Assembly (NCBI GenBank): GCA_030040895.1
Contig: JASHSJ010000031.1
Coordinates: 1 to 64,000 of the forward strand
From: Microcaldota archaeon
GTDB taxonomy: Archaea; Micrarchaeota; Micrarchaeia; Micrarchaeales; Micrarchaeaceae
Length of the DNA: 64,000 nucleotides
Reading direction: 5' to 3'
A program made the position numbers and the translations under genes. The notes under the pieces are model-generated. The model was not told the DNA's origin and searched no databases. It worked only from the letters and a program-made list of their open reading frames with translations. Each line of letters starts with the position of its first letter. Within the stretch, counting starts at the first letter, position 1. Below are positions 36,738 to 64,000 of this stretch, one piece after another.

Positions 36738-37130
36738 ATGAAAGCGAATCTGGGCATGGCATTCCTGTTCATGGCATATGTTTGCATGGCCGCAAGTGCG
36801 GTACAGCCGCACGTATCTTTTCAGGCATCTGTAACAGTGGTCATATCAAAAGGCAATTCCACTACAAACCAGACAACACCGACCACAATATATAATTCAT
36901 CGACATACAACACGTCCACGGCAGCTACATCGTCCATAGCTGGCGGAGGGGGCGGGGGAGGCGGTGGCGCGTCTACTACAGTAACAGTCACAAATAATCC
37001 AACTAACAGCACCACTATATCAACAGGATCCCAGCCTGGCAACTACGGTGGCAGTGCATTCTATGTGGTAATCGGCATAGTGGCCATAGGGGCTGCATAC
37101 TATCTGATCAACAGAGAGCGAGAAAAATGA
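36738..37130 (+). CDS. Small secreted Thr/Asn-rich, poly-Gly protein with C-terminal TM anchor
   Basis: Signal peptide, NTSTAATSSIAGGGGGGGGGASTTVTV, terminal TM plus NREREK; 4-nt overlap with next ORF. Confidence 0.65.
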   Translation: MKANLGMAFLFMAYVCMAASAVQPHVSFQASVTVVISKGNSTTNQTTPTTIYNSSTYNTSTAATSSIAGGGGGGGGGASTTVTVTNNPTNSTTISTGSQPGNYGGSAFYVVIGIVAIGAAYYLINREREK

Positions 37131-38521
37131 ACAGGACAGCCCCGATAGTGGCCCTGTTAGCCCTTATACTCCTATTCCAGATATCTGGCATTGCTGCGGC
37201 AGCTGGCCCCACCAATGACGGCTCTCTGCAGATAGACACAGGCCAGACTATAACTCTGACAGCCACCAGCACTGGCGGTAAGGCGCCATATACCTATACG
37301 TGGTATCAGGACGAAGCGTGCACCGGAACCGTCATATTCACCGGAAATCCGTATACAAGCCCGGCTCTTACTTCTAATACCTACTACTGTGCAAAATCTA
37401 CGGATAGCAGCGTGCCCAACGTTATATCCGAAGCATATATCGAGATCATAGTCAATCCGCAGCTCGTGGCCGGGCCTATAACGCCAGCCTCGCCGTCGAT
37501 AAGCAGCGGCGGGTCGGTAACGCTCACCTCTCATGCGAGCGGAGGAACCACCCCGTATTCCTATGAGTGGTACACAGGAAGCTCGTGCAACTCTGCGATA
37601 TCCGGTACGAACAGCGTTACATATCTTGCAAGCCCGCCCACGTCGACTTATTACTGTTATACGGTGACCGACAGCAGCGAGGCGAACCAGGGGCCGGAAA
37701 CGGCCACGTCTTCGCCGGATCTCGTGACAGTGTTATTATCATCTTCTACAACCACGTTCAAGTCTTCATCAACGCTCTCATCCTCAACACTCTCTTCATC
37801 AACACTATCATCGTCTTCAACAACGCTTAGGACATCTTCCACACTTTCTTCGTCAACACTTTCTTCGTCAACGCTCTCGTCCTCAACGCTCTCGTCCTCA
37901 ACACTCTCTTCATCAACACTATCATCGTCTTCAACAACGCTTAGGACATCTTCCACACTTTCTTCATCAACACTCTCATCCTCAACGCTCTCTTCCACAT
38001 CCCTGTCAACATTGACATCAACTTCACTATCTACGCTCTCTTCCACATCCCTGTCAACGCTATCCTCAACATCATTGTCATCAACAACCACAGTTCCAGT
38101 GGGCCAATACTCATCCACTAGCATATCGTCTTCATCGTCCACAAGCCTGTCGTCTTCGACCAGCACCATAATGGCTCTGTCTACAACTACCCTGCTGGGG
38201 CTTCAGAGCACCACCACGATAGTGTACGAGCTTCTAGGCATGCCGCCGTTCTGCACCATACTCACCATATACATTGACGTGGTGAACATACTTTTCATAC
38301 TTGGGCTTATGCTGATGGTGCTGGGCGGGGCACTCATGGCAGGATCGCAGCTCTTCCCCGGCAACATGAAGGGCACCATAATGGGCTACGGCATAGGCAT
38401 ACTAGTGGGAGGGATAATGGCGGTATTGATCGGAATACTGAGTCCTTACCTTGTGTCAGTGTTGACCGGACTGTCGGCCAACCAGATCACAGCCGCATTC
38501 ATCAAGAATTTCATATGCTGA
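37127..38521 (+). CDS. Surface protein: Ig-like repeats, Ser/Thr-rich stalk, C-terminal two-TM pilin-like module
   Basis: Two Ig-like repeats (GGKAPYTYTWYQDEACTG / GGTTPYSYEWYTGSSCNS), SSTLSSSTL stalk, CTILTIYIDVVNILFILGLMLMVLGGALMAG...FIC. Confidence 0.75.
   Translation: MNRTAPIVALLALILLFQISGIAAAAGPTNDGSLQIDTGQTITLTATSTGGKAPYTYTWYQDEACTGTVIFTGNPYTSPALTSNTYYCAKSTDSSVPNVISEAYIEIIVNPQLVAGPITPASPSISSGGSVTLTSHASGGTTPYSYEWYTGSSCNSAISGTNSVTYLASPPTSTYYCYTVTDSSEANQGPETATSSPDLVTVLLSSSTTTFKSSSTLSSSTLSSSTLSSSSTTLRTSSTLSSSTLSSSTLSSSTLSSSTLSSSTLSSSSTTLRTSSTLSSSTLSSSTLSSTSLSTLTSTSLSTLSSTSLSTLSSTSLSSTTTVPVGQYSSTSISSSSSTSLSSSTSTIMALSTTTLLGLQSTTTIVYELLGMPPFCTILTIYIDVVNILFILGLMLMVLGGALMAGSQLFPGNMKGTIMGYGIGILVGGIMAVLIGILSPYLVSVLTGLSANQITAAFIKNFIC
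37781..37965 (+). repeat. Low-complexity coding tandem repeat with exact 71-bp direct repeat
   Basis: Identical 71-bp copies at 37781-37851 and 37895-37965 (offset 114 bp, in frame) inside a (T)SSTLS-encoding tract. Confidence 0.75.
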
Positions 38522-39021
38522 AATTAATGCAGAACTCCAGTGATATAGTGGAAAGCATTCTTGGATTTGGATCATATGCGACAGTGCCAAGGCTCAAAGT
38601 TCTCCTTTTTTGCATAACGATGCTTGCGCAGCTGGCAGCGGGCGCAGCGCAGCTATACTCAACAACCACAATAGGAGGGCCAGGCCAGAGCACCACCACC
38701 ATAGGAATAAAGTTCGGCCCAACACCGCAGGTCTGCGCCACGCTTGCCGCTTATAACACCATAACGCAGACCCTATACGTGGCCGGGCTGCTGCTGCTGG
38801 TCGCAGCTTTGCTCGTGTACATGAGCCCCAAGATGTTCCCGAAGAAGATAAAGACCAAGACAAGCGGATACGCGATAGGCCTGCTGATAGGAGGAGTAGT
38901 GGCACTTATCCTGTCGTTTACCAGCGTGTTCTTCGTGCAGCTCTTCACCGGATATCCGGCAAATGAATTGTCCGTTTCCGCGATACAGGCGCTGGGCTGC
39001 AACACCGTGTCAGTTTTCTGA
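38515..39021 (+). CDS. Small secreted two-TM pilin-like (VirB2-like) protein
   Basis: 168 aa; module CATLAAYNTITQTLYVAGLLLLVAALLVYMSPKMFPKKIKTKTSGYAIGLLIGG...ALGC (38734-39000), 89 residues Cys to Cys. Confidence 0.72.
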   Translation: MLKLMQNSSDIVESILGFGSYATVPRLKVLLFCITMLAQLAAGAAQLYSTTTIGGPGQSTTTIGIKFGPTPQVCATLAAYNTITQTLYVAGLLLLVAALLVYMSPKMFPKKIKTKTSGYAIGLLIGGVVALILSFTSVFFVQLFTGYPANELSVSAIQALGCNTVSVF

Positions 39022-40248: not shown

Positions 40249-40254
40249 ATGCTG

Positions 40255-40886: not shown

Positions 40887-40941
40887 TTAAGTACAAACAG
40901 ATATATAAATCTTACCCATATACTACCTAAAATAGTATTTT

Positions 40942-42273: not shown

Positions 42274-42304
42274 ATAAAGAATGCGCTCGATAATATCCTG
42301 CCGC

Positions 42305-42388: not shown

Positions 42389-42426
42389 ATATAAGAAAGT
42401 TTGCTAGCAAGACTTAGTGAAAAGCC

Positions 42427-44136
42427 ATGTACACACTTGGCATATGGGACGGCCATGACTCAGGGGCAGCGCTGATAGAAGGGAACAGCGTCATATTCGC
42501 AGCTAACGAGGAGCGATTTACCAAGAGGAAGCTGGAAGTGCACTTTCCAATACATTCCATAAACGCAGCTCTTAAGTACGCCGGACTAAAGCCCAGCGAC
42601 GTGGAGAAAGTCGCATTTACAACCACGGAGCTAACAAAGACTCTGGAGCGGGCGTTTCCTTACATGAAAGAAAATTACTACCAATTCAGGAGGAGGAAGC
42701 AGCTCAGGCCAAGGTTCGAGAATGCGAGGCACAATCTGAAGTACAGGATGACAAGCATAGGCGTAGTGCCATTTTCTACTTCGATAAGCAAGGGCATAGT
42801 TGCAAGAAACCTCCGCCACATGGGATTTGCGAAGTTCAAGCTTGATGTCGTTGAACACCATACCGCCCACGCCGCGGGTGCTGCGTTCACTTCACATATG
42901 AAGAACGGGGCTATAATAACGCTTGACGGTGTTGGCGATGGGATATGCGGCAGCGTAAATATCCTTGAGAACGGCGAGTTCACAAGGAAGCAGAGCATAA
43001 GTGTCAGAGACTCGATTGGCATATTCTACGAACAGGTCACAAATGTACTCGGGATGCGCGAGATGGAAGACGAGGGCAAGATAATGGCGATGTCATGCTA
43101 TTCGTATCCATTTCCATTCGAGGAGAACAAGCTGAGGGATTTTTTCATAGTCACCGGAACGCTCATCAGGGCAAAGTATGGCCCCACCAAGCAGTTCGAG
43201 ATGCTGCAGAGGATAGCATGGCAAACTCCAAGAGAGCAGTTCTCATACATGGCGCAGCAGCTGATCGAGAACGTTATGGCGAAATACGTTAGCAATGTCC
43301 TAGACAGATACAGCATGTCTGACGTCGCGTTCGCGGGGGGAGTTTTCGCAAACGTCAAGGCCAACATGTGCGTAAGGAACCTTGAACAGCTCCGCCACTG
43401 GTACGTGTTCCCGCACATGGGCGATGGAGGCATAGCGCTGGGATCGGCGCTATATTCAAGCTATCTTGAAAATGGAACAACTGATTATAGGTTTAATGCG
43501 TATCTTGGCAACGAATACACAAAAGACGAAACGCTTGCAGTACTCAAGAAGGACCGCAGCCTCATCTTCCAGGAGGAAAGTCCATTCGACCACACGTCTC
43601 ACGCCGCAGAGCTCCTTGGCATGGGAAATTATCTCCTCTGGTTCCAGGGGCGCATGGAATACGGCCCCAGGGCGCTGGGCAACAGGAGCATAGTTGCAAG
43701 GAGCGACCAGGAAGAGGTAAAGGACCGCCTCAATCTTTATGTCAAGAAGAGGGAGTGGTTCCAGCCCTTCGCTCCGTCAGTGCTTGAAGACGATGTCGGC
43801 AGAATCGTTGAATACGATGGCAAAGGCCTTGACAAATACATGACTATGGCGTACATGGTGAAGAAGGAGATGAGGGAGCACGCAAAATCCGTAATGCACA
43901 TAGACGGATCTGCGAGGCCGCAGATGGTAGGAGAAGAGAATCTCATTTACATGAACCTCATAAGGAAGGTCAAAGGAAGAATGGGCAATGGAATAGTCAT
44001 GAACACGAGCTTCAACATACACGGATACCCAATAGTCATGGAGCCGGGTGATGCTGTTGGCGTGCTCAAGGCAACGAAGTCGAAGTACCTTTTCATAAAC
44101 GGCATCTTTGTGACAAACAGGGCTGGTGTTTATTGA
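42427..44136 (+). CDS. NodU/CmcH-family carbamoyltransferase
   Basis: LGIWDGHDSGAALIEGN, EHHTAHAAGAAF, FAGGVFANVKAN, WFQGRMEYGPRALGNRSIVA. Confidence 0.93.
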   Translation: MYTLGIWDGHDSGAALIEGNSVIFAANEERFTKRKLEVHFPIHSINAALKYAGLKPSDVEKVAFTTTELTKTLERAFPYMKENYYQFRRRKQLRPRFENARHNLKYRMTSIGVVPFSTSISKGIVARNLRHMGFAKFKLDVVEHHTAHAAGAAFTSHMKNGAIITLDGVGDGICGSVNILENGEFTRKQSISVRDSIGIFYEQVTNVLGMREMEDEGKIMAMSCYSYPFPFEENKLRDFFIVTGTLIRAKYGPTKQFEMLQRIAWQTPREQFSYMAQQLIENVMAKYVSNVLDRYSMSDVAFAGGVFANVKANMCVRNLEQLRHWYVFPHMGDGGIALGSALYSSYLENGTTDYRFNAYLGNEYTKDETLAVLKKDRSLIFQEESPFDHTSHAAELLGMGNYLLWFQGRMEYGPRALGNRSIVARSDQEEVKDRLNLYVKKREWFQPFAPSVLEDDVGRIVEYDGKGLDKYMTMAYMVKKEMREHAKSVMHIDGSARPQMVGEENLIYMNLIRKVKGRMGNGIVMNTSFNIHGYPIVMEPGDAVGVLKATKSKYLFINGIFVTNRAGVY

Positions 44137-45905
44137 TGATATCTCCGGCTGGCCTGGAAGAATATGCGTTTACCATTGGAATATTGATAGCGTTCCTCGG
44201 AACCATATTCTTTGCAGTGCGCGGCAGGAAGGACATAATATCAGTTTGCAGGTCTGCCGGGATAAAAAAGAATCATTTGCTCATCGGAGTGGCGCTTGTA
44301 GTGCTGTTCCTGGCTGTCGAGCTCTCACTCGTAATGCCGACGCAGCTCCTGTTCTTTGATGATGTCATATACCAGAGCATGTCGCTGCATCTCATAAACC
44401 TGGGTCAGGCATGGATGTGCAACTACGGCACTCCGACGATGTGCTACATAGGTCAGATATTCCACGAGCCAATAGGCACTTCGTTCGACATAGCAATAGG
44501 ATTCCTCATATTCGGGGTTTCAAGGAACGTGGGCTACGCTGTCGGCGTTGCGATGGCAGCAGTATCTGTATTTCTGACTTATCTAGTCGCGTTCCTGCTG
44601 TTCAGGGACTTCAAGTCAGCTGCATTCTCCGGCCTGCTCATGGCGCTATCCCCTATAGTGCTGGTCTGGGCCATGCCTACCAATTCTGACATGCACTTCC
44701 TTGCATATTCGCTGGTTGCAGTTTTCTTCCTTCTCGTTTTCAGGGAGAAGGAGAATGTAAACACCTTCGGGACGCTTGCGCTTTCGCTGGCTCTCGTGTC
44801 GTACATGAAGATAATCGCGATGCTCCTAGTTCCTGTTGCAATAATAATGTACATGGCTCTGGAAAAGGAAAGGCACAGCGGCGTAATACGCAGGACCTAC
44901 GCCAAGATCAGGAAGAATATAGGAAAAACTGCTGTGCTCGCGATCCTGCTGCTCGCTTTCATATCGCTTACAATAAGCGTAGTGTATGCATACACACAGA
45001 ACACTCCTGGCAATTTCGGCGAGCAGGGATCTCCGGTACAGAACAGCTGCGACAACCTGATGCAGACCATAACATCAGAATCGGACTTCGGGATTCAACT
45101 CTTTGAGTTCAACGTGTGCGGAAACCTGCTTTTCTGGCTCGATACATACCAGAGCCAGTACATAATGCAGCCTGTGTTCTTCACTGCGCTGATGCTTGTT
45201 GGCGGGACAGTGCTGGCCTTCAGGAGGAAGTGGGCCCTGCTTGCCATCGCCATATGGCTTCTGTCGTTCTTCCTAGTCTATACGGCGTTCTACGCTGGCG
45301 ATGTGCTATACGGGGTTGATTGGAGGTTCATGCTTAGCACCATAGCCCAGGCCAGCATCCTTGGTGGCTTCTGCTGCTCGATGGCAATAAGCACCGCCGG
45401 AAGCCTTCCAAAGAAATTCCTGAGGAAAAAGGAACTGAAGAAGATGAAGTCATTTCCAAGCGGAATAAGGCTGGGTGTAGCCATAGTTCTGGTCGGGCTC
45501 ATAGCCGGATCAGTATACCTTCTAGTTCCATATCTTGCGGTCAATCCTTCCCAGATACCGCAGGCGGGCGACGCCAGATTCTACGAGGGCATGGTATACA
45601 ATTCCAGCTCCGTCATACCAAAGTCGTGCATTGTATTCAGCTACGACCCCACGCTCTTCTTCCTTAACAACAGGTCAGCTGCGCAAATGTACTTCCTTTA
45701 CAACAGCACCTTCATCCAGCAGGCGTCGTCGCAGTACAGCTGCATGGTGCTCGACTATGGATACTGGTGCTATACCCCAAACAACGACTGCGAGGGCGTC
45801 AACCAATCATACAATCTCAGCCCGCTCTATCTCAGCACCTACAAACCGCTCAACAGGACATACGGATTCTACTACATAACTCCGAAGGCCAATGACACCC
45901 AGTGA
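44133..45905 (+). CDS. GT-C type membrane glycosyltransferase (GT39/ArnT-like)
   Basis: 590 aa polytopic; LLFFDDVIYQSMSLHLINLGQA acidic first loop; TM-rich N-half. Confidence 0.65.
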   Translation: MMISPAGLEEYAFTIGILIAFLGTIFFAVRGRKDIISVCRSAGIKKNHLLIGVALVVLFLAVELSLVMPTQLLFFDDVIYQSMSLHLINLGQAWMCNYGTPTMCYIGQIFHEPIGTSFDIAIGFLIFGVSRNVGYAVGVAMAAVSVFLTYLVAFLLFRDFKSAAFSGLLMALSPIVLVWAMPTNSDMHFLAYSLVAVFFLLVFREKENVNTFGTLALSLALVSYMKIIAMLLVPVAIIMYMALEKERHSGVIRRTYAKIRKNIGKTAVLAILLLAFISLTISVVYAYTQNTPGNFGEQGSPVQNSCDNLMQTITSESDFGIQLFEFNVCGNLLFWLDTYQSQYIMQPVFFTALMLVGGTVLAFRRKWALLAIAIWLLSFFLVYTAFYAGDVLYGVDWRFMLSTIAQASILGGFCCSMAISTAGSLPKKFLRKKELKKMKSFPSGIRLGVAIVLVGLIAGSVYLLVPYLAVNPSQIPQAGDARFYEGMVYNSSSVIPKSCIVFSYDPTLFFLNNRSAAQMYFLYNSTFIQQASSQYSCMVLDYGYWCYTPNNDCEGVNQSYNLSPLYLSTYKPLNRTYGFYYITPKANDTQ

Positions 45906-45957: not shown

Positions 45958-46710
45958 ATGGGAAGCATTCACGGCGGGGCCAGACCCGCGATCCTGATTG
46001 CGGCATTGTTCCTGCTTGCCCTGATGCTGCAGGCACATTCGCAAAGCATTTCAATAGACGGCAGCACCACAAGCCCGCAGGTTTACGCCAGCGATACTCA
46101 GGTTAACTATATCGTTACGGGAAATAACGGAGACCAGGTAATGATAGTATACTGCCCCAGCGCATCATACAGCAGCGCAAACTGCTATACATCAACCACG
46201 TGCACTTCATCATGCACAGGAACGATAGCCGCGGGCCAATTCTTTGCGAGCGACTGCCTCGATTACACCATATTCTCTGGCACCGAGAGCACCGGAACGA
46301 CTTTGTACGTCGGTTTCCTTGACAATGACAATCCGGAGTCGCAGTGGATAGAGGTGCAGATAAGCGGGGGTGGCACAGCGTGCGGTGGCGGCGGTGGCGG
46401 CGGAGGAGGCAACACGTTCGCGCCAACCAGCGTAACGAATACGATATGCTCGATCTATTATGACATAAACACCACGCTCTACGTGCTTGCTCTCGCAATA
46501 ATGCTGCTCGGCGGAGCCATATACGGAGGCGCAAACCTTCTTCCTGGCCAGACCAGGGGTGCGGTGCAGGCATACGGCATGGGCTTGATAATGGGCGGCA
46601 CAGTGGGTGCCATAATAGGCATAGCAGCGCCATGGCTGGTGGGCTCAATAACCACGCAGAATGTTGCAAACGTATTGACTAGCACCTGTCCGCAGTTTAT
46701 CTGGACCTGA
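45958..46710 (+). CDS. Secreted protein with C-terminal two-TM pilin-like module
   Basis: Signal peptide; Cys-rich ectodomain; GGGGGGGGG linker; CSIYYDINTTLYVLALAIMLLGGAIYGGANLLPG...STC (46447-46689, 81 residues). Confidence 0.75.
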   Translation: MGSIHGGARPAILIAALFLLALMLQAHSQSISIDGSTTSPQVYASDTQVNYIVTGNNGDQVMIVYCPSASYSSANCYTSTTCTSSCTGTIAAGQFFASDCLDYTIFSGTESTGTTLYVGFLDNDNPESQWIEVQISGGGTACGGGGGGGGGNTFAPTSVTNTICSIYYDINTTLYVLALAIMLLGGAIYGGANLLPGQTRGAVQAYGMGLIMGGTVGAIIGIAAPWLVGSITTQNVANVLTSTCPQFIWT

Positions 46711-46731
46711 GATTTGGTGCTAGGGGATAAA

Positions 46732-53200: not shown

Positions 53201-54082
53201 GTTGGCGGATACGGCTGCGCGCAGTTCAGCTATGCGGACTTGGGAGCCGGCGGCCAGGTCGGACAGTTCTACAGCTATCAATATGGCCAGGGGCAGGCAG
53301 ACATAGGATATAGCTACAGCTCAGGCTCGGGTGCCGGATGCGTCAGCGACAACTACCTGTTTCCAGGAGTTGCAATACAGCCGGGCACAGGGCTGTTCAC
53401 TGGCACTGGAGGAGTGGACCAGAACGACAATAGCGGCGGCTGCACCGAAGTTTCATGCGACACTGCATACACGTACTATGCATTCCTGAACGGAGGCACA
53501 ACAAACCCATCTCCAATGACCCAGGGACCTAGCCTGCCATCGTACTACAATAACGGGGAGGGCAACTATGGCATGTCTGCTCCCACGTGCCTGTTTGCGC
53601 CATGGATAACGCAGGGCGTTAGCACACCATACTTCTACTGCATGGGAGGCTATATGGACCCAACTGGAGGATATACTGGAGTGTATAGCTTCCTGCCCGT
53701 CAACACTGTTGGCGCAAGCCCATCATTCATCAACTCAGAGTGGAACAACGGCGGATCGCCGCTTGCATATTCTACAGACTATATAAATCCTGCCTGCGCC
53801 GCATATCAGGGAGGACAAACATATAATGGATTCATATACTGTTTCGGCGGCGACACCGGAGGATATACCTACGGCAGCCAGGACGAGGGTGAGCCAGACA
53901 GCACAGTTTATTATGCGGGAGCTGACACGCAGGCGTCGGGCCTGGGCGGAATCCTGCAGTGGCCGGATTGGACTAACGTGCCCTACGACAGCTACGACAG
54001 CCTGAGCTCCACGCTGCCGCAGGCATTATATGGCATGAGTTGCGTGATAGTGAACGATCAAACGGGCAGTTCAACGTCATGA
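50228..54082 (+). CDS. Giant surface protein: Cys-rich ectodomain, internal two-TM pilin-like module, Ig-like domain, Kelch-like propeller
   Basis: CNEYTILQLAILLIALALIVLGALLYIISAVFPAEQRGIVRSY...GSC (51965-52207, 81 residues); GGYPSYNYQWYDNSACTD Ig-like; VYCIGGNNGD / FYCMGGYMD / IYCFGGDTGG Kelch-like. Confidence 0.72.
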   Translation: MNMNYQWGNRMNTRITVIHIAIVILIAAAAGTTAAQLVVSPPRVIQGASANVFYYYNGNTVQNSGYPDTCTSAFYGFPIEISAAGEPCADPNELAYNPDDFYYCDQNTIVPGGMVTQPSTPCILNANYKDLGANGCMSYYFTNLSLLQGTYNVCAYYPEVSINGVAGFSITYEPYATLSLNITTSNYTGINYGLQINPSAQTWSGATTLMLSANTQTGTYQGFSSSFSICSSANSQCYAELGGANNAGEGCFSPLTQNGASTQLPQCSYTGASMNTPCLLAGAQSSSTQYSISLPAWISSTTSNYMVCAYQYNAISYPSGTQESNTVNPGNVHPYVSEFYATQPISCSSAQGSCTAGPSGGQEQQSVGVVAPGGFPYATMLAWPGPTINTTWQQTTGPYLAFNAFGFPVPAPYENYNAFVLYEDPVSSYSAVAQSGLQQACTDVMQSSPPTCSSAISSLTSPQTLDQPCYESYMLGQPTPYSYSCQIVGGSGADSCTSPALTSYGSGEFEQNLLSFSGTQNSVFQNLAVGNYLFCGLLTLPEQQPQLLSAIAVQIVPSTSPSAATSLTSPNNAPVLALLCNEYTILQLAILLIALALIVLGALLYIISAVFPAEQRGIVRSYSVSMILGGVIGLVVFVFATYFLSVLSSGTVSDLVIGSCSSVSGYGLGPPPSPSSPLEVTVNPDQQSIQYGQQATITATASGGYPSYNYQWYDNSACTDAISGASGPVLTAYPTSDTTYCVEVTDSESDTAEATAIVTVAPPPPPPQSPSNAVVYCIGGNNGDPTSGDNVFNPNVYYANVLDTGGLAEASSNTVSGTVWSEAQYQVPLLQGYGGVALDQDPSMYPLSPWLDLPVYVSCTAYDWYLYCIGASDYYGVLCPSCSGPTPSTISVMEFSANILQDGGLGPWTTFTSGQSTAGQMWTTSSQHNLEISSITLGVNGDSSEGPECPPVDISSGYGTLYYNNCSFFLIGSACQVSGSDMYCTWPEGATVGGYGCAQFSYADLGAGGQVGQFYSYQYGQGQADIGYSYSSGSGAGCVSDNYLFPGVAIQPGTGLFTGTGGVDQNDNSGGCTEVSCDTAYTYYAFLNGGTTNPSPMTQGPSLPSYYNNGEGNYGMSAPTCLFAPWITQGVSTPYFYCMGGYMDPTGGYTGVYSFLPVNTVGASPSFINSEWNNGGSPLAYSTDYINPACAAYQGGQTYNGFIYCFGGDTGGYTYGSQDEGEPDSTVYYAGADTQASGLGGILQWPDWTNVPYDSYDSLSSTLPQALYGMSCVIVNDQTGSSTS

Positions 54083-54199: not shown

Positions 54200-54607
54200 A
54201 TGAACCTACAAACCAAGACCCAGTACCTTATGATGAGGTACTCAAGGCTGCTCATATTAGTGTTCACGCTAATGGGCATGGCTGGAATGGTCCTAGGAAC
54301 CGCAGCGGCACAGTCTACGGGCACGAACTCGGCGATTTGTACGATCTACACGATCTACAACGACGTGATAACGATAATATACGTGCTAGGCTTGATGCTG
54401 ATGATCCTGGGCGGAGCACTGTACGCGGGCGCAAACCTGCTACCAGGTAACGTCAAGGGCCAGCTTCAGGGATACGGCATGGGTATGATAATAGGCGGTG
54501 TGATTGGCATCATAATAGCTCTGTTGGCGCCATTCATAATACAGGCCTTCACTGGAACAAACCCAGCGACATACACAGCCGGATTCACAACACAGTTCGG
54601 CTGCTAA
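54200..54607 (+). CDS. Minimal pilin-like (VirB2/TrbC/CedA1-like) two-TM protein
   Basis: 135 aa: signal peptide ending AAAQS, then CTIYTIYNDVITIIYVLGLMLMILGGALYAGANLLPGNVKGQLQGYGMGMIIGGVIGIIIALLAPFIIQAF...FGC (89 residues). Confidence 0.8.
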   Translation: MNLQTKTQYLMMRYSRLLILVFTLMGMAGMVLGTAAAQSTGTNSAICTIYTIYNDVITIIYVLGLMLMILGGALYAGANLLPGNVKGQLQGYGMGMIIGGVIGIIIALLAPFIIQAFTGTNPATYTAGFTTQFGC

Positions 54608-54750: not shown

Positions 54751-56337
54751 ATGGCCAAGGCAAGCCCAAGGAACGACTGCCCTTATGCATTCATTCCCAT
54801 AATCATAATACTTATTGGCATAGCCATCGCCCTATTCACGTATTCTGGCCCCCTTATAGCATACGATGATGCAGCCTACTTAACTTACGCCCATCAGATG
54901 CTAATTGGCACGTTCGGCATAGGCGAATCAACATACGCCTATGGATTCATATATCCCGCGACTGTCGCAGCATCAATGTTTTTCGGGATAAGCCAGTATT
55001 CGGCTGCAATACCGCAGTTGGTTGAATATATTGCCATAATGGCCCTGACCTTCCTGATCGCAAGAAGGCTCTATGGGACAAGGATAGCAAACATCTCATT
55101 GTTGTTTGTCGCTACCGCCCCGTTCGTTGTTGCCTACGCGACAAGGGCGTTGCCAGACATGCTGGAAGGCGCGTTGGCAGCACTGGCCATATACGTTTTC
55201 GTAGCCGCCTCGCAATCATCAGAAAACAAGCAGTTGTTGTATCTCGCTGCCGGGGCGATAGCCGCGTTGACAATATATGCGCAGCTTTTATCATCAATCT
55301 TCGTCTTCTTCTTCGCATGCGCAATAATCATACTTTCAGTAAGAATCGACAAGAAGCCGAAAAATAACATATCATTCAACAGAATCAGTGCGCTGTACTT
55401 TCTCCTTGGAGTGGCCATAATGCTGGCAGCCTATCTGATGATATTTTACCTGCAGACTGGCAGCGCGTTGACTCCATACAAGTATTCTGAATTTCAGAGC
55501 GCCAACAGGCCAGGCCTGCTCTACAATGCACTCGAGTTCATACTTGTAATATACGGCTACACAATCAGCGGCTCTTCCCCGCTTGTTGGAGTGGTGTTGC
55601 CGATAGGGCCTATGGCGCTATGGGCCATAGCCGGAATCTTTATAGGATATAAAAAGAGGAACAGAGCGGCCATGATGTTTGCAATAATAGGCCTGGGCTT
55701 CATGCTCTACCTGTTCTTCGGCACAATATCATTGTCAAGCTACATCACCGCGTATGTGGTCACGAGATACTTTATTGTTGTAGCAGCGCCGCTGGCTATA
55801 CTAGCTGCATATTCAATTGTTGTGCTTTCCGATCTGTTTTCTCTCGCATTTTCGAACAAGGTCGGGTATGCGGTATTGTCGGCTTTCATACTTATCACGA
55901 TAGGCTTCAACGCATTTGTGATGACATCAGTATATGCTTACAACTATTCAATATACGCAACAACACAGGTGCTCTCCGCTGCCCTGCAAGGAATACCAGC
56001 GGGCGGTTCAACACCAGCGGTAATTTACGTAGCTGACTGGCTACCGCAGTCATCGCTCACGTGGCTGATTGGTGCATACGGCATTCCCCCATACGAGTCT
56101 TTTCTGTATTTCCTTACCGGCTTCAGCCCTAACGTAGCGATAAAGAGCGTCACGATGACAGTTTGCCCGGGTGCAGCCTCAAACCAGTATCTCCTTGGGA
56201 TGTACGGCAACAATACGCAAAATGTCACGGAATCAATAAACACATGGCTTTCAGGAAGCAATTGCGTGCTGGCACTTGTGGGCAATTACAGTGCCACATC
56301 ATCTTTCGTGCGGGTTTCTCTTTACAGGGTAGATTGA
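54751..56337 (+). CDS. GT39/PMT-like membrane glycosyltransferase
   Basis: 528 aa polytopic; IAYDDAAYLTYAHQMLIG, YATRALPDMLEGALAALAIYVF. Confidence 0.65.
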   Translation: MAKASPRNDCPYAFIPIIIILIGIAIALFTYSGPLIAYDDAAYLTYAHQMLIGTFGIGESTYAYGFIYPATVAASMFFGISQYSAAIPQLVEYIAIMALTFLIARRLYGTRIANISLLFVATAPFVVAYATRALPDMLEGALAALAIYVFVAASQSSENKQLLYLAAGAIAALTIYAQLLSSIFVFFFACAIIILSVRIDKKPKNNISFNRISALYFLLGVAIMLAAYLMIFYLQTGSALTPYKYSEFQSANRPGLLYNALEFILVIYGYTISGSSPLVGVVLPIGPMALWAIAGIFIGYKKRNRAAMMFAIIGLGFMLYLFFGTISLSSYITAYVVTRYFIVVAAPLAILAAYSIVVLSDLFSLAFSNKVGYAVLSAFILITIGFNAFVMTSVYAYNYSIYATTQVLSAALQGIPAGGSTPAVIYVADWLPQSSLTWLIGAYGIPPYESFLYFLTGFSPNVAIKSVTMTVCPGAASNQYLLGMYGNNTQNVTESINTWLSGSNCVLALVGNYSATSSFVRVSLYRVD

Positions 56338-56372: not shown

Positions 56373-57122
56373 TTGGTTAACGATGAGCAAATGGTAAACG
56401 TACTAGAGCATTCTTGGAACTTCTATGTCAAGAACATAAAGATGCTTCTGCTGTTCTCGCTCCCGTTCATAATAGCGTTCCTCATACCAGTGCTGGCTCC
56501 ATTTCCAACGTTCAACGATGCGGGCGGCATATTCCTGAGGCTGGCCAGCACGTCTTCAAACCTCAACATATTCAACACAGCGGTTATAGTATTCTCTGCG
56601 CTGTTCTCGCTCCTGTTTCTGAGCTTCGCAATTGTTGCGATAAACATACTTGTGAAGCATACGAGAACTAGCACGAGAATAGGTACTGAAGTAATGAAGG
56701 GCCTGGAAACGTACACGTCAAAGGTTTTTGGTATACTGCTCCTATATACTGCAATCCTGGCAGCGCTAAGCGGAATGGCGTACTACTACGGCGTGTCTGC
56801 GCTTGCTCCAGCCATAATAGGGCTCATAATAACGCCATTTTTCTTCTACGCACCTGCATCCATTGTCATAGATGAGCGTGGAACCTACAGGGCGATGCAG
56901 CAGAGCTTCAGGCTTTTCATGAACCAGATACAATATCCGATCCTTTGGCTTGTTGTTGCAATAATACTGGTGAGCTTCTTCGACATACTTTTCATATGGA
57001 TTGGTGGGACTACAATATCACGCTATCTTTTGCTTGTCTTCAACGGCCTTTTCATAATGCCGTTCCTCGTTGTACTCCAGAGCCAGAGCTACATGAAGAG
57101 ATTTCCACTTCTCAAACACTGA
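56373..57122 (+). CDS. Polytopic membrane protein, unknown function
   Basis: 249 aa, about 6 predicted TM; TTG start; APASIVIDERGTYRAMQQSFRLF. Confidence 0.6.
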   Translation: MVNDEQMVNVLEHSWNFYVKNIKMLLLFSLPFIIAFLIPVLAPFPTFNDAGGIFLRLASTSSNLNIFNTAVIVFSALFSLLFLSFAIVAINILVKHTRTSTRIGTEVMKGLETYTSKVFGILLLYTAILAALSGMAYYYGVSALAPAIIGLIITPFFFYAPASIVIDERGTYRAMQQSFRLFMNQIQYPILWLVVAIILVSFFDILFIWIGGTTISRYLLLVFNGLFIMPFLVVLQSQSYMKRFPLLKH

Positions 57123-57170: not shown

Positions 57171-58424
57171 GTGAATATGCGGGGGCGCACCTATGCTATA
57201 GCCGCTGCTCTAGCCGTGCTTGTGCTATTGCAGCTCCTGCCGTACGGCTCAAGCCAGATTACTTTCTACTGCGCGTCTACAGGTACACTTACAGGGTCTA
57301 TAGCCACGTGCATAAACGCAACAATATTCCCGTATGTAGTGGTGGCGCTTCTTTTTTCCTTCCAGCTTGTGGCTTTTACTTATCTCATTGGTGAAGTCAT
57401 AGGCATACCAGCACTCAAGGGATGGTACAGGAACGAGCTCTGGGAGTCTGTCAAAAGCCTGTTAATAGTCGGGCTTCTGCTCTTTGGCATTCTAGTCATG
57501 GGCACCCTGGCCGGTGCTCTGGTATCATCAAATGGCCCTACCGAGGTAAACCTGGGAAACCTTTACACGGCTGCGAACAATTATCTCAACGGGGTAGAGC
57601 AGACCGCACAGGCTTCGTATTATTCCATCATGGGCATAAACGTAGCTGTCGGATATCTCGAGAGCATAAGCCTCACTTATCCGGGATTCATATTCCCATT
57701 ATACATACCACCGTATGAGGTAATAGGCAGCATAGGCACCGGTTCAGGTTTCAACCCGTTCGCCAGCACTATTGTTACCGGCGGGTCGGGTTCCACAATA
57801 ATAACGCAGACGTTCTCGCTGCTGGTAGTGCCTACCTCAATCGTCGTTGCGCTGCAGACCCAGCTAGTTACGTATCTCGCTTACATAGGACTAGGAGTGC
57901 TCCTGCCTATCGGCATTATACTGAGAGCCATACCGTTCCTCAGGTGGATAGGCGGAACTTTCATAGCGCTGGCTATAACTGCCGCATTTATCTATCCTGC
58001 ACTTATAGTGTTTCTGAACCAGACCGTAACAAGCACAGTTCCAAACCTTGCATCGCTAGTCTCCGTAGCCAATCCTGGATCAGATTGCCAGGGATGGTAC
58101 ATACTTGCATGCGGTTTCTTTGCCATAGGAGATGCGCCAGCGTCGCTTCTCTACAGCGGGCTTGGTACTTGCCCCGGGACATATCTTGCCTGCGCCTATT
58201 CTAACGGTTACTCAGCAGGGGAGATAGCATTCTTCGGAGGTGCAAACGGCACGCCAAGCTTCACCCCGATACTCAATGTGCTCATGGATTATGCAATACC
58301 ATTGGGACTGCAGTTCATATTGTTCATACTTGACCTGATAATAGGCGTTACTGTTGCCACAAGCCTTGCCACCGCGCTCGGAGGAAGGATAAGGCTTGGC
58401 ATAGGAAAGTTCAGGGTAGCTTAG
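57171..58424 (+). CDS. Polytopic membrane protein, VirB6/TrbL-like, paralogue 1
   Basis: Signal peptide; IPALKGWYRNELWESVKSLLIV; GIILRAIPFLRWIGGTFIALAITAAFIYPALIVF; tttaaatatt TATA-like at 57141-57150. Confidence 0.7.
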   Translation: MNMRGRTYAIAAALAVLVLLQLLPYGSSQITFYCASTGTLTGSIATCINATIFPYVVVALLFSFQLVAFTYLIGEVIGIPALKGWYRNELWESVKSLLIVGLLLFGILVMGTLAGALVSSNGPTEVNLGNLYTAANNYLNGVEQTAQASYYSIMGINVAVGYLESISLTYPGFIFPLYIPPYEVIGSIGTGSGFNPFASTIVTGGSGSTIITQTFSLLVVPTSIVVALQTQLVTYLAYIGLGVLLPIGIILRAIPFLRWIGGTFIALAITAAFIYPALIVFLNQTVTSTVPNLASLVSVANPGSDCQGWYILACGFFAIGDAPASLLYSGLGTCPGTYLACAYSNGYSAGEIAFFGGANGTPSFTPILNVLMDYAIPLGLQFILFILDLIIGVTVATSLATALGGRIRLGIGKFRVA

Positions 58425-58432: not shown

Positions 58433-59629
58433 TTGATAAACACTTGCGCACTTTATGCCGGTGTCGGCGGATGGCTAAACATAAATGTCATAGTGCTTCT
58501 CGCAACCGCTGCCGCTATAGCGCTTGTCTTCATGCTTGGCAGGTTCCTGCCGGATCGCGCGAAGGGAAGGATCACCGGAATAATAAGGTCGGAGATAAGC
58601 CAGCTGGTCATAAGCTGCATAGTGCTAGCAGCCCTTGTGGGATTGTCATCTACTGCGTGCAGCGCAGTCAACGCCGTGGCCACCAACCTCCAGCAGTATC
58701 CATCTGCAACGCAATACCAAGCGGGGCCAGTTCCGTGTCCTGCCAATATAATAAGCATTCCGCCAAGCGACCCGTTCACTTATACTGAGACCTATCTGTC
58801 GACGCTCGGATTCGGCCTTGGCCCATCATTGGCTTCCGAAATATTCAGCGTTTCATATGACTTCGGACTGGACTCTGCGGAGGCAACGGTGCGCAGCCAG
58901 ATACTGAACCTAATTCCTACCGCAGGAATTCAGGGGCCCTTCGGCCTGTCATTTCCTATAGGATATAATCTCGGATCTGCGTTCAGCAAAGTGTCGGCAG
59001 ACCTGCTCGATGTGCTGCTGCCGCTCGTGCTGTCGTCCATAGCCGTGGCAGACGTCCAGTATATAGCACTGATAGGAATACAGGCGCTCGCATTCACGAT
59101 ACTGCTGCCTGTCGCGCTTGCAATGAGATCCGCGGCATTCATGGGCCCAGGGCTGCGTGTAGCAGCGAACAGCCTGCTCGCACTTGCTATTGCTGCATAC
59201 ATGATATACCCGATGACCGTTGCGTTCGACCACTACGCGCTGAGCTGGATGTTCACGCAGTGTTCGGGCGGCCAGGGCGCATCTACCTGCAATCCATCTG
59301 CCACGTATTTGTGCACAAGCTATAATTCTGGCGTTAACTTCAACCAGATAGGCAACCTGGTGTCAACGTATTGGGACCAGCTTAACGTACCCATAATAGG
59401 GAACGTTGGCGGGGTGGTGATAAATGCCGGAGCCAACTACCTGTTCGCCGATGCCAGCTCCAGCGCATCAGCAATGACTGTCCTGATAGTTTCGGTATCC
59501 GAATATCTTTTCACAACTGTGCTCATGTTCGTGCTTAATCTGCTGATAACCGTGGGCTTCGCGATGAGCCTTTCCAGGGCACTGTCAAGCGGTACTGAGG
59601 GCGCGGCCTCGTTCTGGAGTAGCATATGA
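58433..59629 (+). CDS. Polytopic membrane protein, VirB6/TrbL-like, paralogue 2
   Basis: RAKGRITGIIRSEISQLVISCIV; ALAMRSAAFMGPGLRVAANSLLALAIAAYMIYPMTVAF; TTG start. Confidence 0.7.
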   Translation: MINTCALYAGVGGWLNINVIVLLATAAAIALVFMLGRFLPDRAKGRITGIIRSEISQLVISCIVLAALVGLSSTACSAVNAVATNLQQYPSATQYQAGPVPCPANIISIPPSDPFTYTETYLSTLGFGLGPSLASEIFSVSYDFGLDSAEATVRSQILNLIPTAGIQGPFGLSFPIGYNLGSAFSKVSADLLDVLLPLVLSSIAVADVQYIALIGIQALAFTILLPVALAMRSAAFMGPGLRVAANSLLALAIAAYMIYPMTVAFDHYALSWMFTQCSGGQGASTCNPSATYLCTSYNSGVNFNQIGNLVSTYWDQLNVPIIGNVGGVVINAGANYLFADASSSASAMTVLIVSVSEYLFTTVLMFVLNLLITVGFAMSLSRALSSGTEGAASFWSSI

Positions 59630-61137
59630 TGATAAAAATGACTAGCATATCGGCGCTCGGGATCCTGTTGCAGCTGCCGTCATTCCCATACGTGCAGCTG
59701 AATCTTTTCAACCTGATAGTGCTGGTACTGCTTGTCGACGGCAGCATAGTTGCAGTTTGGTACATCATAGGCGCGATACTGGGCAACGGCAGGATCAAGT
59801 CATCCGCGCGCGGCGAATTCGAGCAGTTTGCCGGAACCGTGATAATGCTTGCCATAGTAATGGGCGTGATACTGTTCGTAGGATATACATATTATTCGGC
59901 GCTCAACCAGACCAGCCAGTATCCGACCTCAGTGCCAACAATACTTTCAATAGGCAGCATAAGGAATTCGTACTGCGTTCCGCTGAGCACGAGTGCCTAT
60001 TCATTCATATACGCGATGGTGCAGCCGATGTGCGCTGGGGTAATAGACCCGCTGTTCAACAATGCCGGTCCGCCTCCAGATCCCACTCTATATACTGACC
60101 TGCCCCTTGCAAACGCAGGCATAGTGACGGCAAGCCTTGCGCAGCAGGTAGCAGACAATCTGAACTCGACTTTCATAGTAGATTCATACCTCCAGTTCCT
60201 CTCCAGGCTTACTCCGAACGCGGCGCTGTGTTTCCAGCTGACTCCTCCAGATACTGATGGATGTTTCGGGGCCCCTGGACCGCCCTTCACATTCAAGATC
60301 CTGGTCAGCGGTCAGCCGCTTTCCGGACTTCAGATGATAACGCAGTCGCTCACCACGTTCTCCACCATAACATACACCTCGATGGTGATGTTCATAGTGG
60401 AGCTGATGTTCACGCTCATATTCCTGTATACGTGGCCATATCTGGTCTTTTTCGGATTTGCGTTGCGCGCAACTCCGTACACAAGAAAAGTCGGTGGCCT
60501 TCTCATAGCAGTGGGGCTAGGAGGCGTGCTCTTCTATCCTACGGTTTTTTCCATGGAATATCTTGCCGCTTACAACAGCGCCCTCACCGCAGGATTTTAT
60601 CCGCAGAGCGGAATAACTTTCTGCAACAATGGCTCATATACATATTATGAGAACTTCTTCCAGCTGCCAAGTGTCTCTGGGATAGCACAGGATTGCGGCT
60701 GCTGGCCCAAGTTCGGCCTGCTCGCAACGGAATCCATAGAGGCTACCCTCGTATCCAGCCCCGGATACGTGGCTTTCGCTTTTTACGATGGCTTTGCAAA
60801 GGCGCTCTTGAGCATAATCTATGACATATTCGTAAAGCATAGTACGAGCTCGTTGGCGCAGCAGCTGGCAAGCGACCTGCAGCAGGAGGTCTCCGGTCCA
60901 TTCTCGTACCAGAACATGTTCCAGTTTCTGGGATCGTTCGGCTCGTGCGGGCCAGAGACACCGCAGAGCGGAGGCGAGGGCATGCTGTTCGGAATGCTTG
61001 AAGTATATGGCATAATAGGAGTTTCATCATACTTTCTGCCGGTACTCAACACGCTGATCGCGCTATCCGCTATACGCGGACTGTCAGGGATACTAGGAGG
61101 GGATACCAGCCTAGCTGGCCTTTCGAGGATAATATAG
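59626..61137 (+). CDS. Polytopic membrane protein, VirB6/TrbL-like, paralogue 3
   Basis: RIKSSARGEFEQFAGTVIML; GFALRATPYTRKVGGLLIAVGLGGVLFYPTVFSMEY; 4-nt overlap with upstream gene. Confidence 0.72.
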   Translation: MMIKMTSISALGILLQLPSFPYVQLNLFNLIVLVLLVDGSIVAVWYIIGAILGNGRIKSSARGEFEQFAGTVIMLAIVMGVILFVGYTYYSALNQTSQYPTSVPTILSIGSIRNSYCVPLSTSAYSFIYAMVQPMCAGVIDPLFNNAGPPPDPTLYTDLPLANAGIVTASLAQQVADNLNSTFIVDSYLQFLSRLTPNAALCFQLTPPDTDGCFGAPGPPFTFKILVSGQPLSGLQMITQSLTTFSTITYTSMVMFIVELMFTLIFLYTWPYLVFFGFALRATPYTRKVGGLLIAVGLGGVLFYPTVFSMEYLAAYNSALTAGFYPQSGITFCNNGSYTYYENFFQLPSVSGIAQDCGCWPKFGLLATESIEATLVSSPGYVAFAFYDGFAKALLSIIYDIFVKHSTSSLAQQLASDLQQEVSGPFSYQNMFQFLGSFGSCGPETPQSGGEGMLFGMLEVYGIIGVSSYFLPVLNTLIALSAIRGLSGILGGDTSLAGLSRII

Positions 61138-61144: not shown

Positions 61145-62302
61145 ATGAAAACGCTGAAAAAGAGGGCATTCTGCATCATATCGCTAGCCGCGCTTGCTGC
61201 CACTGCCCTGCTACTTGTGATTCCGAATACTGGTGCACAGGGCGGATCAAACGTATTTGCAGACTCAAACATATGCCACCTAGGGCTGGGCTCCAACATA
61301 TTCGGCACAATCGGCTCTGCAACCCCGCTCAACAGCATGGTTGAAGATTCCTTGCTGATCGTGCTGTTCCTTGTCAACATAGCGGTGATAGCATACATAC
61401 TGGGCAATGCTTTCAGGATAAGGAGCCTCGCGAACTTCGGCAGGGCGGAGATGGGAGAGGCCGTAATAACAATCGTAATAGTCGCGGTTTTCCTTGGCAC
61501 GTTCCAAGGCATAACTTTCAATCCGATATTCAACAACCAGGCGCTTGCGCCATCGAGCAATTTCTTCGCCCCCACCCCGTCTGCGGTGCAGCCCAGCACC
61601 TTCCTGGTCGACTGCAACATGCTGGTAGCAGCATCAGGAGTCGCATTCAACAACGCCTTCGGCGTTCTGGCGTTCCAGGACTTTGACGAGCTGGTGCAAT
61701 CGTTCAGCTACTCTATAAACTTCGGAGGCGGAACCCTCGGATACAGCGCGTCGCCGTACGCCGGGCTGTCTGGAGCGATATTCGCTATAGACCAGGTTTC
61801 AAATATAGCATTTGTGCTTGTCGCATTCCCGCTTGCTGTGGCCGGCCTTCTCTGGATATTCTTTGCATTTTTCCCGATATTTTTCTACATAGGATTGGTC
61901 ATGAGGGCCTTTCCTTGGACTAGGGCTGCGGGCGCGTCTTTTCTAGGCATATTCCTGGGATTCTATTTGATGTTTCCAGCATTATTGTTCCTGCTGCTCT
62001 CCGGGCTGGGGCAAACCGCAATAAACCCATACGGATACAGCGCAATACAAACGATCTCATACGTCAATCCGATCGATATACTGGGCCTTGGAGTATCATA
62101 CCTACTGGGAGACCAGGCGCTGCTGCAGTTCATAGGAATAAGCAACGGATTCGGCGGCCAGGGCGAGATATCACAGTTATTTTTCATACTTGTCGCGGTG
62201 CTGCTTTCATTCATCATATCGTTTGACTTTATGGAAGCTATAAGCAACCTGCTCGGAGCACCGAGCCTGCGCGCAGATAACACGCTTAGAAGGGTAATAT
62301 GA
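61145..62302 (+). CDS. Polytopic membrane protein, VirB6/TrbL-like, paralogue 4
   Basis: FRIRSLANFGRAEMGEAVITIVI; GLVMRAFPWTRAAGASFLGIFLGFYLMFPALLFL. Confidence 0.72.
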   Translation: MKTLKKRAFCIISLAALAATALLLVIPNTGAQGGSNVFADSNICHLGLGSNIFGTIGSATPLNSMVEDSLLIVLFLVNIAVIAYILGNAFRIRSLANFGRAEMGEAVITIVIVAVFLGTFQGITFNPIFNNQALAPSSNFFAPTPSAVQPSTFLVDCNMLVAASGVAFNNAFGVLAFQDFDELVQSFSYSINFGGGTLGYSASPYAGLSGAIFAIDQVSNIAFVLVAFPLAVAGLLWIFFAFFPIFFYIGLVMRAFPWTRAAGASFLGIFLGFYLMFPALLFLLLSGLGQTAINPYGYSAIQTISYVNPIDILGLGVSYLLGDQALLQFIGISNGFGGQGEISQLFFILVAVLLSFIISFDFMEAISNLLGAPSLRADNTLRRVI

Positions 62303-63435
62303 CAACACAATCTATGAGACGTGAAATTGCGGAAAGAAACCGCAAGAGGAGAGCAGTGGCGGTGAGGACAGGCATGAGCGCTGCCCTGCTGCTCCTTATG
62401 GTCATTGGCATAGGAAATTCAAAGACGGTGGATACACTGCTCCAGGCAAACCTTCCGGTGCTCCCTACGGAGTGGCTCTCCTTCGCCACTATAGCAGTCC
62501 TTGCACTAGTCTCGGTTGCCGCCATGGTATACATGCTGAGCGGGCTCATAGGCAGCGAGGAAGCGAAGAACTGGTCCAGGAACCAAATATACGAGGGATT
62601 ACTCAGCCTTGTCATACTGATGATATTAATAGCGTTCATCTGGATATTTTCGCAAAACGTCTGGCAGACTTACTATGCCGCGGGGCTGACTGCGCAGCCC
62701 ACTTCCATATACTCCTGCCAGAGCGCGCAGGATCTATTTGAAATTGCAACGTGCAACCTTGCGCAGTTCAACGGCCTCGCCATGGGCTTCTTCCAGTCAG
62801 TGTACTTCTTCGGCGTGATAGCTGGGCTGGCCCCCGGAATCAGCTACAGCTACGATACGTCATACTTCAACACGCAGATAGTCGTGACCTATGGGATCCC
62901 GGCCATACTGCCCGTCACTATCGAGGACATAATGGGCAACGTCTACTCAATACTGATACTGCTCTACATATTGAACCAGGTGCAGCTGCTGTTGCTGGCC
63001 GGTTCGGCACTGTGGCTGTCGTTTTTCGTGACTCTGGGAGTTGTAGCCAGAGCGCTGGGATTCTCCAGATCGTTCGGCGGGGCCATGATAGCGATAGGGC
63101 TAGGGCTTGGCTTAATATTGCCGCTCATGACAAGCATAACATATGGATATTTGGATTTCCAGCTCAGCACGGTGCAGACGCTAACTCCGGCAGGAATAAC
63201 GTCATATTTGCTGGAATATGGTATACCACTCGCCGTTGAATATTTCACTTCGCTGGGAGCGTTCGCGCCTCAGCTCCCCGGAGGGCCAACGCTGTTTCAG
63301 ATAGTATTGCTTGGTGGGGGCATGACGTTCCTGCCGTTTATAAACTTCACAGTAGTTGATGCTTTCATAGTTGACCTATCTTCCGCAATAGGCGAGAGGG
63401 TCAATTTCATGACACTGCTTACTGGTGCCATATGA
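62299..63435 (+). CDS. Polytopic membrane protein, VirB6/TrbL-like, paralogue 5
   Basis: GSEEAKNWSRNQIYEGLLSLVILM; GVVARALGFSRSFGGAMIAIGLGLGLILPLMTSI; ATGA overlap. Confidence 0.72.
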   Translation: MTTQSMRREIAERNRKRRAVAVRTGMSAALLLLMVIGIGNSKTVDTLLQANLPVLPTEWLSFATIAVLALVSVAAMVYMLSGLIGSEEAKNWSRNQIYEGLLSLVILMILIAFIWIFSQNVWQTYYAAGLTAQPTSIYSCQSAQDLFEIATCNLAQFNGLAMGFFQSVYFFGVIAGLAPGISYSYDTSYFNTQIVVTYGIPAILPVTIEDIMGNVYSILILLYILNQVQLLLLAGSALWLSFFVTLGVVARALGFSRSFGGAMIAIGLGLGLILPLMTSITYGYLDFQLSTVQTLTPAGITSYLLEYGIPLAVEYFTSLGAFAPQLPGGPTLFQIVLLGGGMTFLPFINFTVVDAFIVDLSSAIGERVNFMTLLTGAI

Positions 63436-64000
63436 TGAAGAATATCATTCCAAGACTGTTCCTGCTCGTCGTGCTAGCCATGGCCCTGACTGCCACAGCC
63501 AATTACTCCGGTGCGGCATCTGTCGCTATCCCGTCGGGGCCTTGTTCAGTGCCGGCCAGTTTCACTCAAGCACAGGTTGATGGGATATGGGACACCGAGA
63601 TGCCGGTCGCGTTTGTTGCCGTATCTATGGCTTTCATAATAGCACTGATAATCTTCATGATAGGCGCGGCCGCGAAGAGCGACAGGCTCAGGAACTTCGG
63701 GATCGGAGAGATATACGAGGCCATGGTCAGCGCAATGTTCGTGATCGCGTTCGCGGCCCTTGCCGCACTAATATTGCAGACCATACCGCAGTCAGGGCTA
63801 AACGTGGTTTTCGGGACTCCCGGCCCCACATACACGGGGGCACAGGTAACAGATCCATTTGTGACCGCAACAAGCGGCATATGCACACTTGTCGGGAATG
63901 TTGAGACGATATACGACCAGGCACTGAACGGCAATCCGGGCGCTTGCAATGGGGCTTGCATAGTATTTCTGCCCTCCAGCCTGGTGCTTCCGTGCCTTGA
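63432..64000 (+). CDS. VirB6/TrbL-like paralogue 6, 3' partial (runs off window; absent from ORF track)
   Basis: Own translation: MMKNIIPRLFLLVVLAMALTATANYSGAASVAIPSGPCSVP...AAAKSDRLRNFGIGEIYEAMVSAMFVIAFAALAALILQTIPQSGLN...; open to the last base; ATGA overlap with upstream stop. Confidence 0.72.
   Translation, partial: MMKNIIPRLFLLVVLAMALTATANYSGAASVAIPSGPCSVPASFTQAQVDGIWDTEMPVAFVAVSMAFIIALIIFMIGAAAKSDRLRNFGIGEIYEAMVSAMFVIAFAALAALILQTIPQSGLNVVFGTPGPTYTGAQVTDPFVTATSGICTLVGNVETIYDQALNGNPGACNGACIVFLPSSLVLPCL

Follow-up and report, generated by a model that had tools for sequence, protein, structure and literature searches.

An array of six channel-like paralogs linked to a VirB4-type ATPase points to a Ced/Ted-type secretion-like machine in Micrarchaeota

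The window analyzed here, a stretch of 64,000 nucleotides comprising positions 1–64000 of contig C2 (70,363 bases) from a 0.76 Mb Micrarchaeota genome (completeness 92%), contains pilin-like genes followed by tandem genes for channel-like membrane proteins (V1 to V5 complete and the start of V6). Beyond the window end, the locus continues with the rest of V6, two genes for membrane-anchored N proteins and a gene for a VirB4/CedB/HerA-type ATPase (Table 1). We consider it probable that this locus encodes a chromosomal, vertically inherited machine of Micrarchaeota, which resembles type IV secretion systems (T4SS) and is of the same type as the archaeal Ced and Ted systems. Its gene set and gene order, the family of the ATPase, the rule of six V genes and the pilin likeness are direct observations from the sequences or from their conservation. 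An earlier interpretation of the window from its letters alone (hereafter the sequence-only reading) had suggested a separate, expanded Ced/Ted-like system in a DPANN-like archaeon, which is supported by the linked, conserved ATPase and by the co-occurrence of the components. The fixed number of six V genes, the splitting of VirB4 and the presence of a second, compact cassette go beyond that reading.

The sequence-only reading, which saw no ATPase in the window, had proposed to look for one downstream of position 64000, and an ATPase gene indeed starts 2.3 kb beyond the window end. The protein matched DUF87/HerA (2e-14), AAA_10 (3.5e-13) and the TraG P-loop family (3.7e-9) above the Pfam cut-off, had CedD, VirB4 and CedB as NCBIfam neighbours, and matched the solved VirB4-like protein 4ag5 at 4e-9. 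The linked ATPase was found with 60–77% identity in 56 of 60 relatives, nearly all of them Micrarchaeota metagenome-assembled genomes (MAGs) and including the cultured ARM-1 and one Burarchaeum. The sample consists mostly of MAGs, transmembrane (TM) helices were counted from hydropathy, and at least two genome entries duplicate a named record (G065/G249, ARM-1; G151/G252, with identical array coordinates), each being counted once. The genes preceding the ATPase were read in 20 relatives, which together with the source genome gives 21 loci. Conservation of the gene order was borne out, as the arrangement V1-V2-V3-V4-V5-V6-N1-N2-ATPase was kept in 20/20 relatives, mostly with the same accessory genes after it; the automatic choice of open reading frames (ORFs) misses a few single genes in this reading, e.g. 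N1 in G014 and the ATPase ORF in G039. Of 97 near-complete genomes in the phylum, 89 contained the V family and 89 the N family; among the absentees listed, a genome lacking one family also lacked the other.

A gene set of this kind resembles conjugation, and the authors of the Mia14 paper suspected that genomic islands harbour conjugative elements (PMC5498576). The locus could belong to an integrated conjugative element as its transfer region. However, almost all genomes of two families carry it at a comparable place, with the ATPase identities given above, the V paralogs are ancient and class-wide, and no VirD4-type coupling protein was found in the source genome. We therefore regard this explanation as highly improbable, and the distribution led us to reject a mobile-element reading.

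The sequence-only reading had described the V genes as a VirB6/TrbL-like array. Their products are indeed polytopic and mutually homologous, and profile comparison united V1–V6 and the V protein of the compact cassette in one family (probability 95.7–99.6), which none of the other multi-TM families of the locus joined. They have the location and topology of a CedA/VirB6 channel, yet no named family, including VirB6 and TrbL, was matched. Members of V2 were matched by the pilin seed profile at 1e-5 to 1e-3 without iteration (0 matches on shuffled sequences) and more strongly after iteration. A survey with a broad V alignment, in which V genes were counted as non-overlapping ORFs, detected tandem V arrays in nearly all class-level genomes searched. 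Exactly six V genes were present in 24/24 complete class-level arrays (15 genomes) and in each of the 21 loci of this order, and thus in 45/45 complete arrays overall. Three class-level arrays cut by contig ends showed three V genes, and a weak seventh match in the array of G083 turned out to be a 119-aa pilin. No loss of a single gene from a V array was seen. Many class-level genomes outside this order contain two six-gene arrays and one singleton V.

Among 210 V cores placed in a tree, the three closest neighbours outside a gene's own array had the same array position in 95–99 of 99 cases per position. Positions 2 and 6 were monophyletic and positions 1 and 5 nearly so, position 4 was split in two, and the singletons formed a separate clade beside position 3. 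When profiles of array types A and B were compared, the best match lay on the diagonal for all six positions; for the V profiles of this order this held in 5/6 cases against type A and in only 3/6 against type B. As the genes group by position across arrays, we conclude that the six-paralog set is older than the array duplication. As a separate observation, the type B arrays at class level are followed by a predicted surface protein of ~1150–1670 aa where complete (family F1; loci L176, L183, L186, L189, L192, L198, L200 and L202).

The six V proteins may form one mixed ring in which each paralog occupies a fixed place, our preferred reading of the array, to which we assign somewhat less than an even chance. 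The more specific model of a hetero-hexameric pore, built from six ancient, non-interchangeable VirB6-like paralogs that were duplicated as an entire set in many lineages, and accompanied by a single-paralog version in the same genome, is put forward tentatively. In the literature searched, we found no description of a mixed six-paralog ring for a T4SS. Six conserved paralogs would speak for an assembly other than that of classical conjugative T4SS, in which a VirB6 homopentamer sits on a VirB4 hexamer of dimers. Alternatively, a T4SS-like machine could use the V proteins as separate homo-oligomeric pores, or as a pentamer with an accessory subunit, each for its own step or substrate. The solved VirB6-type rings (VirB6 and DotA) are homopentamers rather than hexamers, one V suffices in the compact cassette, and V proteins vary widely in length (281–1346 aa). 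With separate pores, however, one would expect single genes to have been lost or extra copies gained, whereas all complete arrays have six genes and the positions are kept even after duplication of the whole array; we consider this alternative possible but somewhat less likely than the mixed ring.

The compact cassette is located on contig C6 and consists of a pilin, one V, one N and an ATPase gene. It was present in most of 30 loci fetched, and its V protein matches the array V proteins at E-values of 1e-14 to 1e-5.

N1, N2 and the compact N also constitute one family (profile comparison, 97–99.5). For an N2 orthologue from L076, which was modelled from a 22-sequence alignment (pLDDT 78), R388 TrwK/VirB4 accounted for all of the four top-ranking PDB matches (probability 0.93–0.98, E 0.06–0.1). 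Because this fold agrees with an expectation that had been derived from gene order before the fold search was made, we assign the N proteins to the N-terminal domain of VirB4. The N- and C-terminal domains of VirB4 would accordingly be found on separate genes, as N proteins and ATPase, respectively. Genomes of this order, ARM-1 among them, and G083 showed two adjacent N genes. A heterodimer of N1 and N2 mirroring VirB4 dimers was rejected as a general rule, since only one N occurs in the compact cassettes and in the more distant loci L097, L101 and L103.

Pilin-like two-TM proteins, several of them fused to adhesins, had been reported upstream of the array. They are present there, with a different count: the hairpin profile, which gave 0 matches on shuffled proteins, identified seven such proteins within positions 36738–64000, of which two (not one) are minimal and five carry extra domains, while ORF 36738–37130 was no pilin by profile. 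In addition, the cluster is broken by genes for eRF1, a VapC-like pair, SerS and tRNA-Leu. The source genome contains 10 pilin domains, compared to mostly 1–3 in other genera, and large pilin fusions are mainly a trait of this genus. Concatemers of hairpins in one frame were also found, with seven in G002 (C22:3559-5535) and four in a 632-aa ORF of G013 (C8). A pilin homologous to pilin G (Table 1) is encoded directly upstream of the array in most loci of family f1.

All 30 main-locus pilin domains have a Cys before helix 1 and a Cys after helix 2, and the loop between the two helices is net positive in all of them; the flanking Cys pair was found in 0/26 compact pilins. Since the flanking Cys and the positive loop fit a topology with both pilin ends outside the membrane, fusions at the N- or the C-terminus would point to the outside. 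Judging from the sequence, the Cys pair may possibly act as a disulfide clamp. A profile built from the window pilins alone matched the compact pilins at E-values of 1e-5 to 1e-8, and the compact pilin profile placed R388 VirB2 (TrwL) at the top of 54 plasmid proteins (4e-5). Among 20 pilin members scanned with Pfam, nine matched T4SS_pilin (best 3e-5) and six matched TrbC (best 3e-4). R388 TrwL was also hit at E 0.06 when a pilin profile was searched against PDB sequences, but it ranked behind unrelated membrane proteins and was not used as evidence.

Besides the homopentameric VirB6-type rings, several results weigh against our interpretation of the locus. The V proteins had no match to VirB6 or TrbL in Pfam and NCBIfam scans (29 members) or in a PDB profile search, and none to R388 TrwI and R751 TrbL by HMM/HHalign; a Foldseek search of the V5 model against the PDB yielded no match either, which is weak evidence given the pTM of 0.67. 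The N proteins matched neither the PDB nor plasmid VirB4 by sequence, and their fold match to VirB4 is not significant by E-value alone (~0.06). All Pfam matches of the pilins were below the cut-off, and their link to VirB2 is therefore distant. For the coupling protein, which the sequence-only reading had suggested to look for, PF02534 (VirD4 type) had no match in the 92% complete source genome, while the controls were positive. Finally, the arrays are not adjacent to the ATPase in ARM-1 and most class-level genomes. The components are scattered in ARM-1, with the V array at 343–351 kb, the ATPase at 427 kb and N1/N2 at 450–452 kb; this organism retains the compact pilin-V-N-ATPase cassette near 384 kb (L175). 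The V family and the hairpin proteins might instead form part of some unrelated complex of the envelope, such as one of the S-layer or of protein export, that uses a HerA-like ATPase. An S-layer gene is located nearby, and a VirB6/CedA homolog of V was not detectable. Nevertheless, the pilin–VirB2 match, the fold match to the VirB4 N-terminal domain, the CedA-like similarity between V and pilin, and the four-gene cassette in combination make this explanation unlikely.

In the Ced/Ted-type machine that we favour, a membrane pore would be powered by the ATPase, corresponding to the C-terminal domain of VirB4, together with the separate membrane-anchored N proteins, corresponding to its N-terminal domain. 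The six V proteins would build this pore, with N anchoring the ATPase beneath it. VirB2-like pilins whose two ends both lie outside the membrane could polymerise on the pore, and the adhesin-fused pilins may be displayed along the filament or at its tip, where they could bind a partner cell. Exchange, with DNA, protein or metabolites as candidate cargo, would likely take place with an archaeal host or with sister cells. A different function, as an organelle for host–partner contact or secretion that transports proteins or metabolites, or serves for attachment only, and does not transport DNA, is a realistic possibility, although we would not call it probable. The fusion of pilins to adhesin domains and the lack of a VirD4-type coupling protein (PF02534) in the source genome are in line with it, epibiotic Patescibacteria have retained a T4SS that has pilin arrays and lacks a relaxase (PMC12102498), and ARM-1 and its host are joined by protein tubes (PMC11329633). 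On the other hand, Ced and Ted as the closest characterised archaeal relatives exchange DNA, and the ARM-1 tubes were ascribed to the host cell (PMC11329633).

Among known systems, the likeness is closest to Ced (Sulfolobales) and Ted (Thermoproteales), which likewise are chromosomal and comprise a VirB2-like pilin, a polytopic channel protein and a VirB4/HerA-like ATPase (PMC9905601, PMC11868833). CedB and CedD are the closest or near-closest named families for the Micrarchaeota ATPase, and the N-terminus of a channel protein resembles the pilin as in CedA/CedA1 (PMC9905601). However, Ced has CedA and one paralog (CedE) and Ted a single channel gene, whereas Micrarchaeota have six in fixed order. 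Unlike the Ced/Ted ATPases, the Micrarchaeota ATPase has no N-terminal domain in the same protein, and the pilins, in contrast to those of Ced/Ted, are fused to large domains or tandemly joined. Furthermore, Ced and Ted are DNA-exchange systems, while DNA exchange is a candidate function for the Micrarchaeota machine. Because the VirB4 halves are separate and homology to CedA is not demonstrable, it is not a strict Ced member and is filed as a variant of the archaeal T4SS-like systems.

The T4SS of Patescibacteria (PMC12102498) also occurs in reduced, host-dependent cells, is VirB4-based, mostly lacks a relaxase and has multiple VirB2-like pilins arrayed. It differs in being bacterial and FATA-class related, and its VirB6 homologs are ordinary genes without six-gene arrays; PrgB-type adhesins were not detected for it (PMC12102498). 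The nearest precedent for the six-V array is provided by the rvh system of Rickettsia (PMC2653234), where five VirB6 paralogs of varied length (rvhB6a–e) are encoded in one cluster, VirB4 is duplicated, and inheritance is vertical in host-dependent cells. This system is proteobacterial, has five instead of six paralogs, possesses VirB8–VirB11 and VirD4, and is without a split VirB4 and adhesin-fused pilins. Nanohaloarchaeal SPEARE proteins, also from DPANN, tie adhesive domains to a VirB4-like ATPase in a proposed T4SS (PMC10266531); there, adhesin and ATPase form one giant protein, whereas in Micrarchaeota the adhesin-like domains reside on the pilin. In the open literature searched, from which most subscription journals and preprints are absent, we found no T4SS reported for Micrarchaeota.

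The way in which DPANN archaea are connected to their hosts has long been an open question. Cryo-tomography of ARM-1 showed nanotubes of the host that dock onto a barrel complex of unidentified nature in the envelope of the symbiont; VirB proteins are not mentioned in that paper according to a text search (PMC11329633). To link the 21-nm barrel to the T4SS-like system is speculation. Our results name concrete candidate proteins in the cultured ARM-1 (V array, ATPase, N1/N2 and compact cassette), and the exact-six rule leads to a sharp structural prediction. If our interpretation is correct, a near-universal T4SS-like machine is added for a whole archaeal phylum, and the contact or exchange machinery of these tiny, probably host-dependent organisms becomes testable. 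A hetero-hexamer, if real, would form an asymmetric channel with the ability to handle the individual ATPase subunits or cargo steps in different ways.

Table 1 Features of the locus and its surroundings. Coordinates are window positions; features reaching beyond the window are given on contig C2.
Feature	Coordinates	Strand	Remarks
Adhesin-fused pilin	10690..14304	+	1204 aa; C-terminal Cys-flanked hairpin; pilin profile 2e-21 at 14050-14262; outside 36738-64000
Adhesin-fused pilin A	37127..38521	+	464 aa; Ig/SprB-like N-domain, Ser/Thr-rich linker, hairpin residues 378-452
Minimal pilin B	38515..39021	+	168 aa; hairpin profile
Housekeeping block (eRF1, VapC-like pair, SerS, tRNA-Leu)	39025-42389		Interrupts pilin cluster
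NodU-type carbamoyltransferase	42427..44136	+	Carbam_trans_N 1e-34, Carbam_trans_C 6e-54
GT-C glycosyltransferase (PMT_2)	44133..45905	+	PMT_2 1.3e-10; pairs with NodU in relatives
Adhesin-fused pilin C	45958..46710	+	250 aa; hairpin profile
Adhesin-fused pilin D	46714..48153	+	479 aa; hairpin profile
Pilin E	48164..50209	+	681 aa; hairpin flanked on both sides by extra domains
Pilin F	50228..54082	+	1284 aa; central hairpin (579-649), large domains on either side
Minimal pilin G	54200..54607	+	135 aa; T4SS_pilin 0.003, below cut-off
GT-C glycosyltransferase (PMT_2)	54751..56337	+	PMT_2 1.3e-9
Six-TM protein, head of array	56373..57122	+	Kept in 18/21 loci; no Pfam family
V1, VirB6/CedA-like channel paralog, position 1	57171..58424	+	Gene order, profile comparison, tree
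V2, position 2	58433..59629	+	N-terminal hairpin like pilin
V3, position 3	59626..61137	+	Gene order, profile comparison, tree
V4, position 4	61145..62302	+	Gene order, profile comparison, tree
V5, position 5	62299..63435	+	Model pLDDT 74, pTM 0.67
V6, position 6	63432..64000 (whole gene C2:63432-64583)	+	Cut by window end
N1	C2:64642-65475		277 aa; two N-terminal TM helices and predicted cytoplasmic domain
N2	C2:65472-66305		277 aa; two N-terminal TM helices and predicted cytoplasmic domain
VirB4/CedB/HerA-type ATPase	C2:66310-67824		504 aa; AAA_10 at C2:66484-67359
Small genes after ATPase	C2:67817-68122, C2:68132-68500		Further on contig
Conserved coiled-coil and winged-helix protein	C2:68571-69326 (L004:12572-13327)		EAP30/Vps36 weak, 3e-4, below cut-off
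Large membrane-anchored protein	from C2:69502		Further on contig

The NodU-type carbamoyltransferase and the GT-C enzymes, which had been noted as interspersed in this region, were identified by matches to both Carbam_trans domains and to PMT_2. NodU is encoded near the array in several f1 relatives and is absent from the f2 loci. We do not claim NodU and the GT-C enzymes as parts of the system, as their linkage is confined to several f1 genomes and frequently involves the opposite strand.

Within the housekeeping block, positions 40255–40886 between eRF1 and SerS contain a small gene pair that by eye resembles a VapC toxin with its antitoxin. The S-layer protein gene (30895–33861; S_layer_C 3e-21) is followed by two conserved membrane-anchored genes (33969–36683), and several f1 relatives have this S-layer block as well, located upstream of eRF1-SerS. 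Positions 27187–30120, upstream of the S-layer gene, encode a glycosyltransferase, an FkbM-like methyltransferase and a nucleotide-sugar epimerase, which by eye are of the surface-glycan type.

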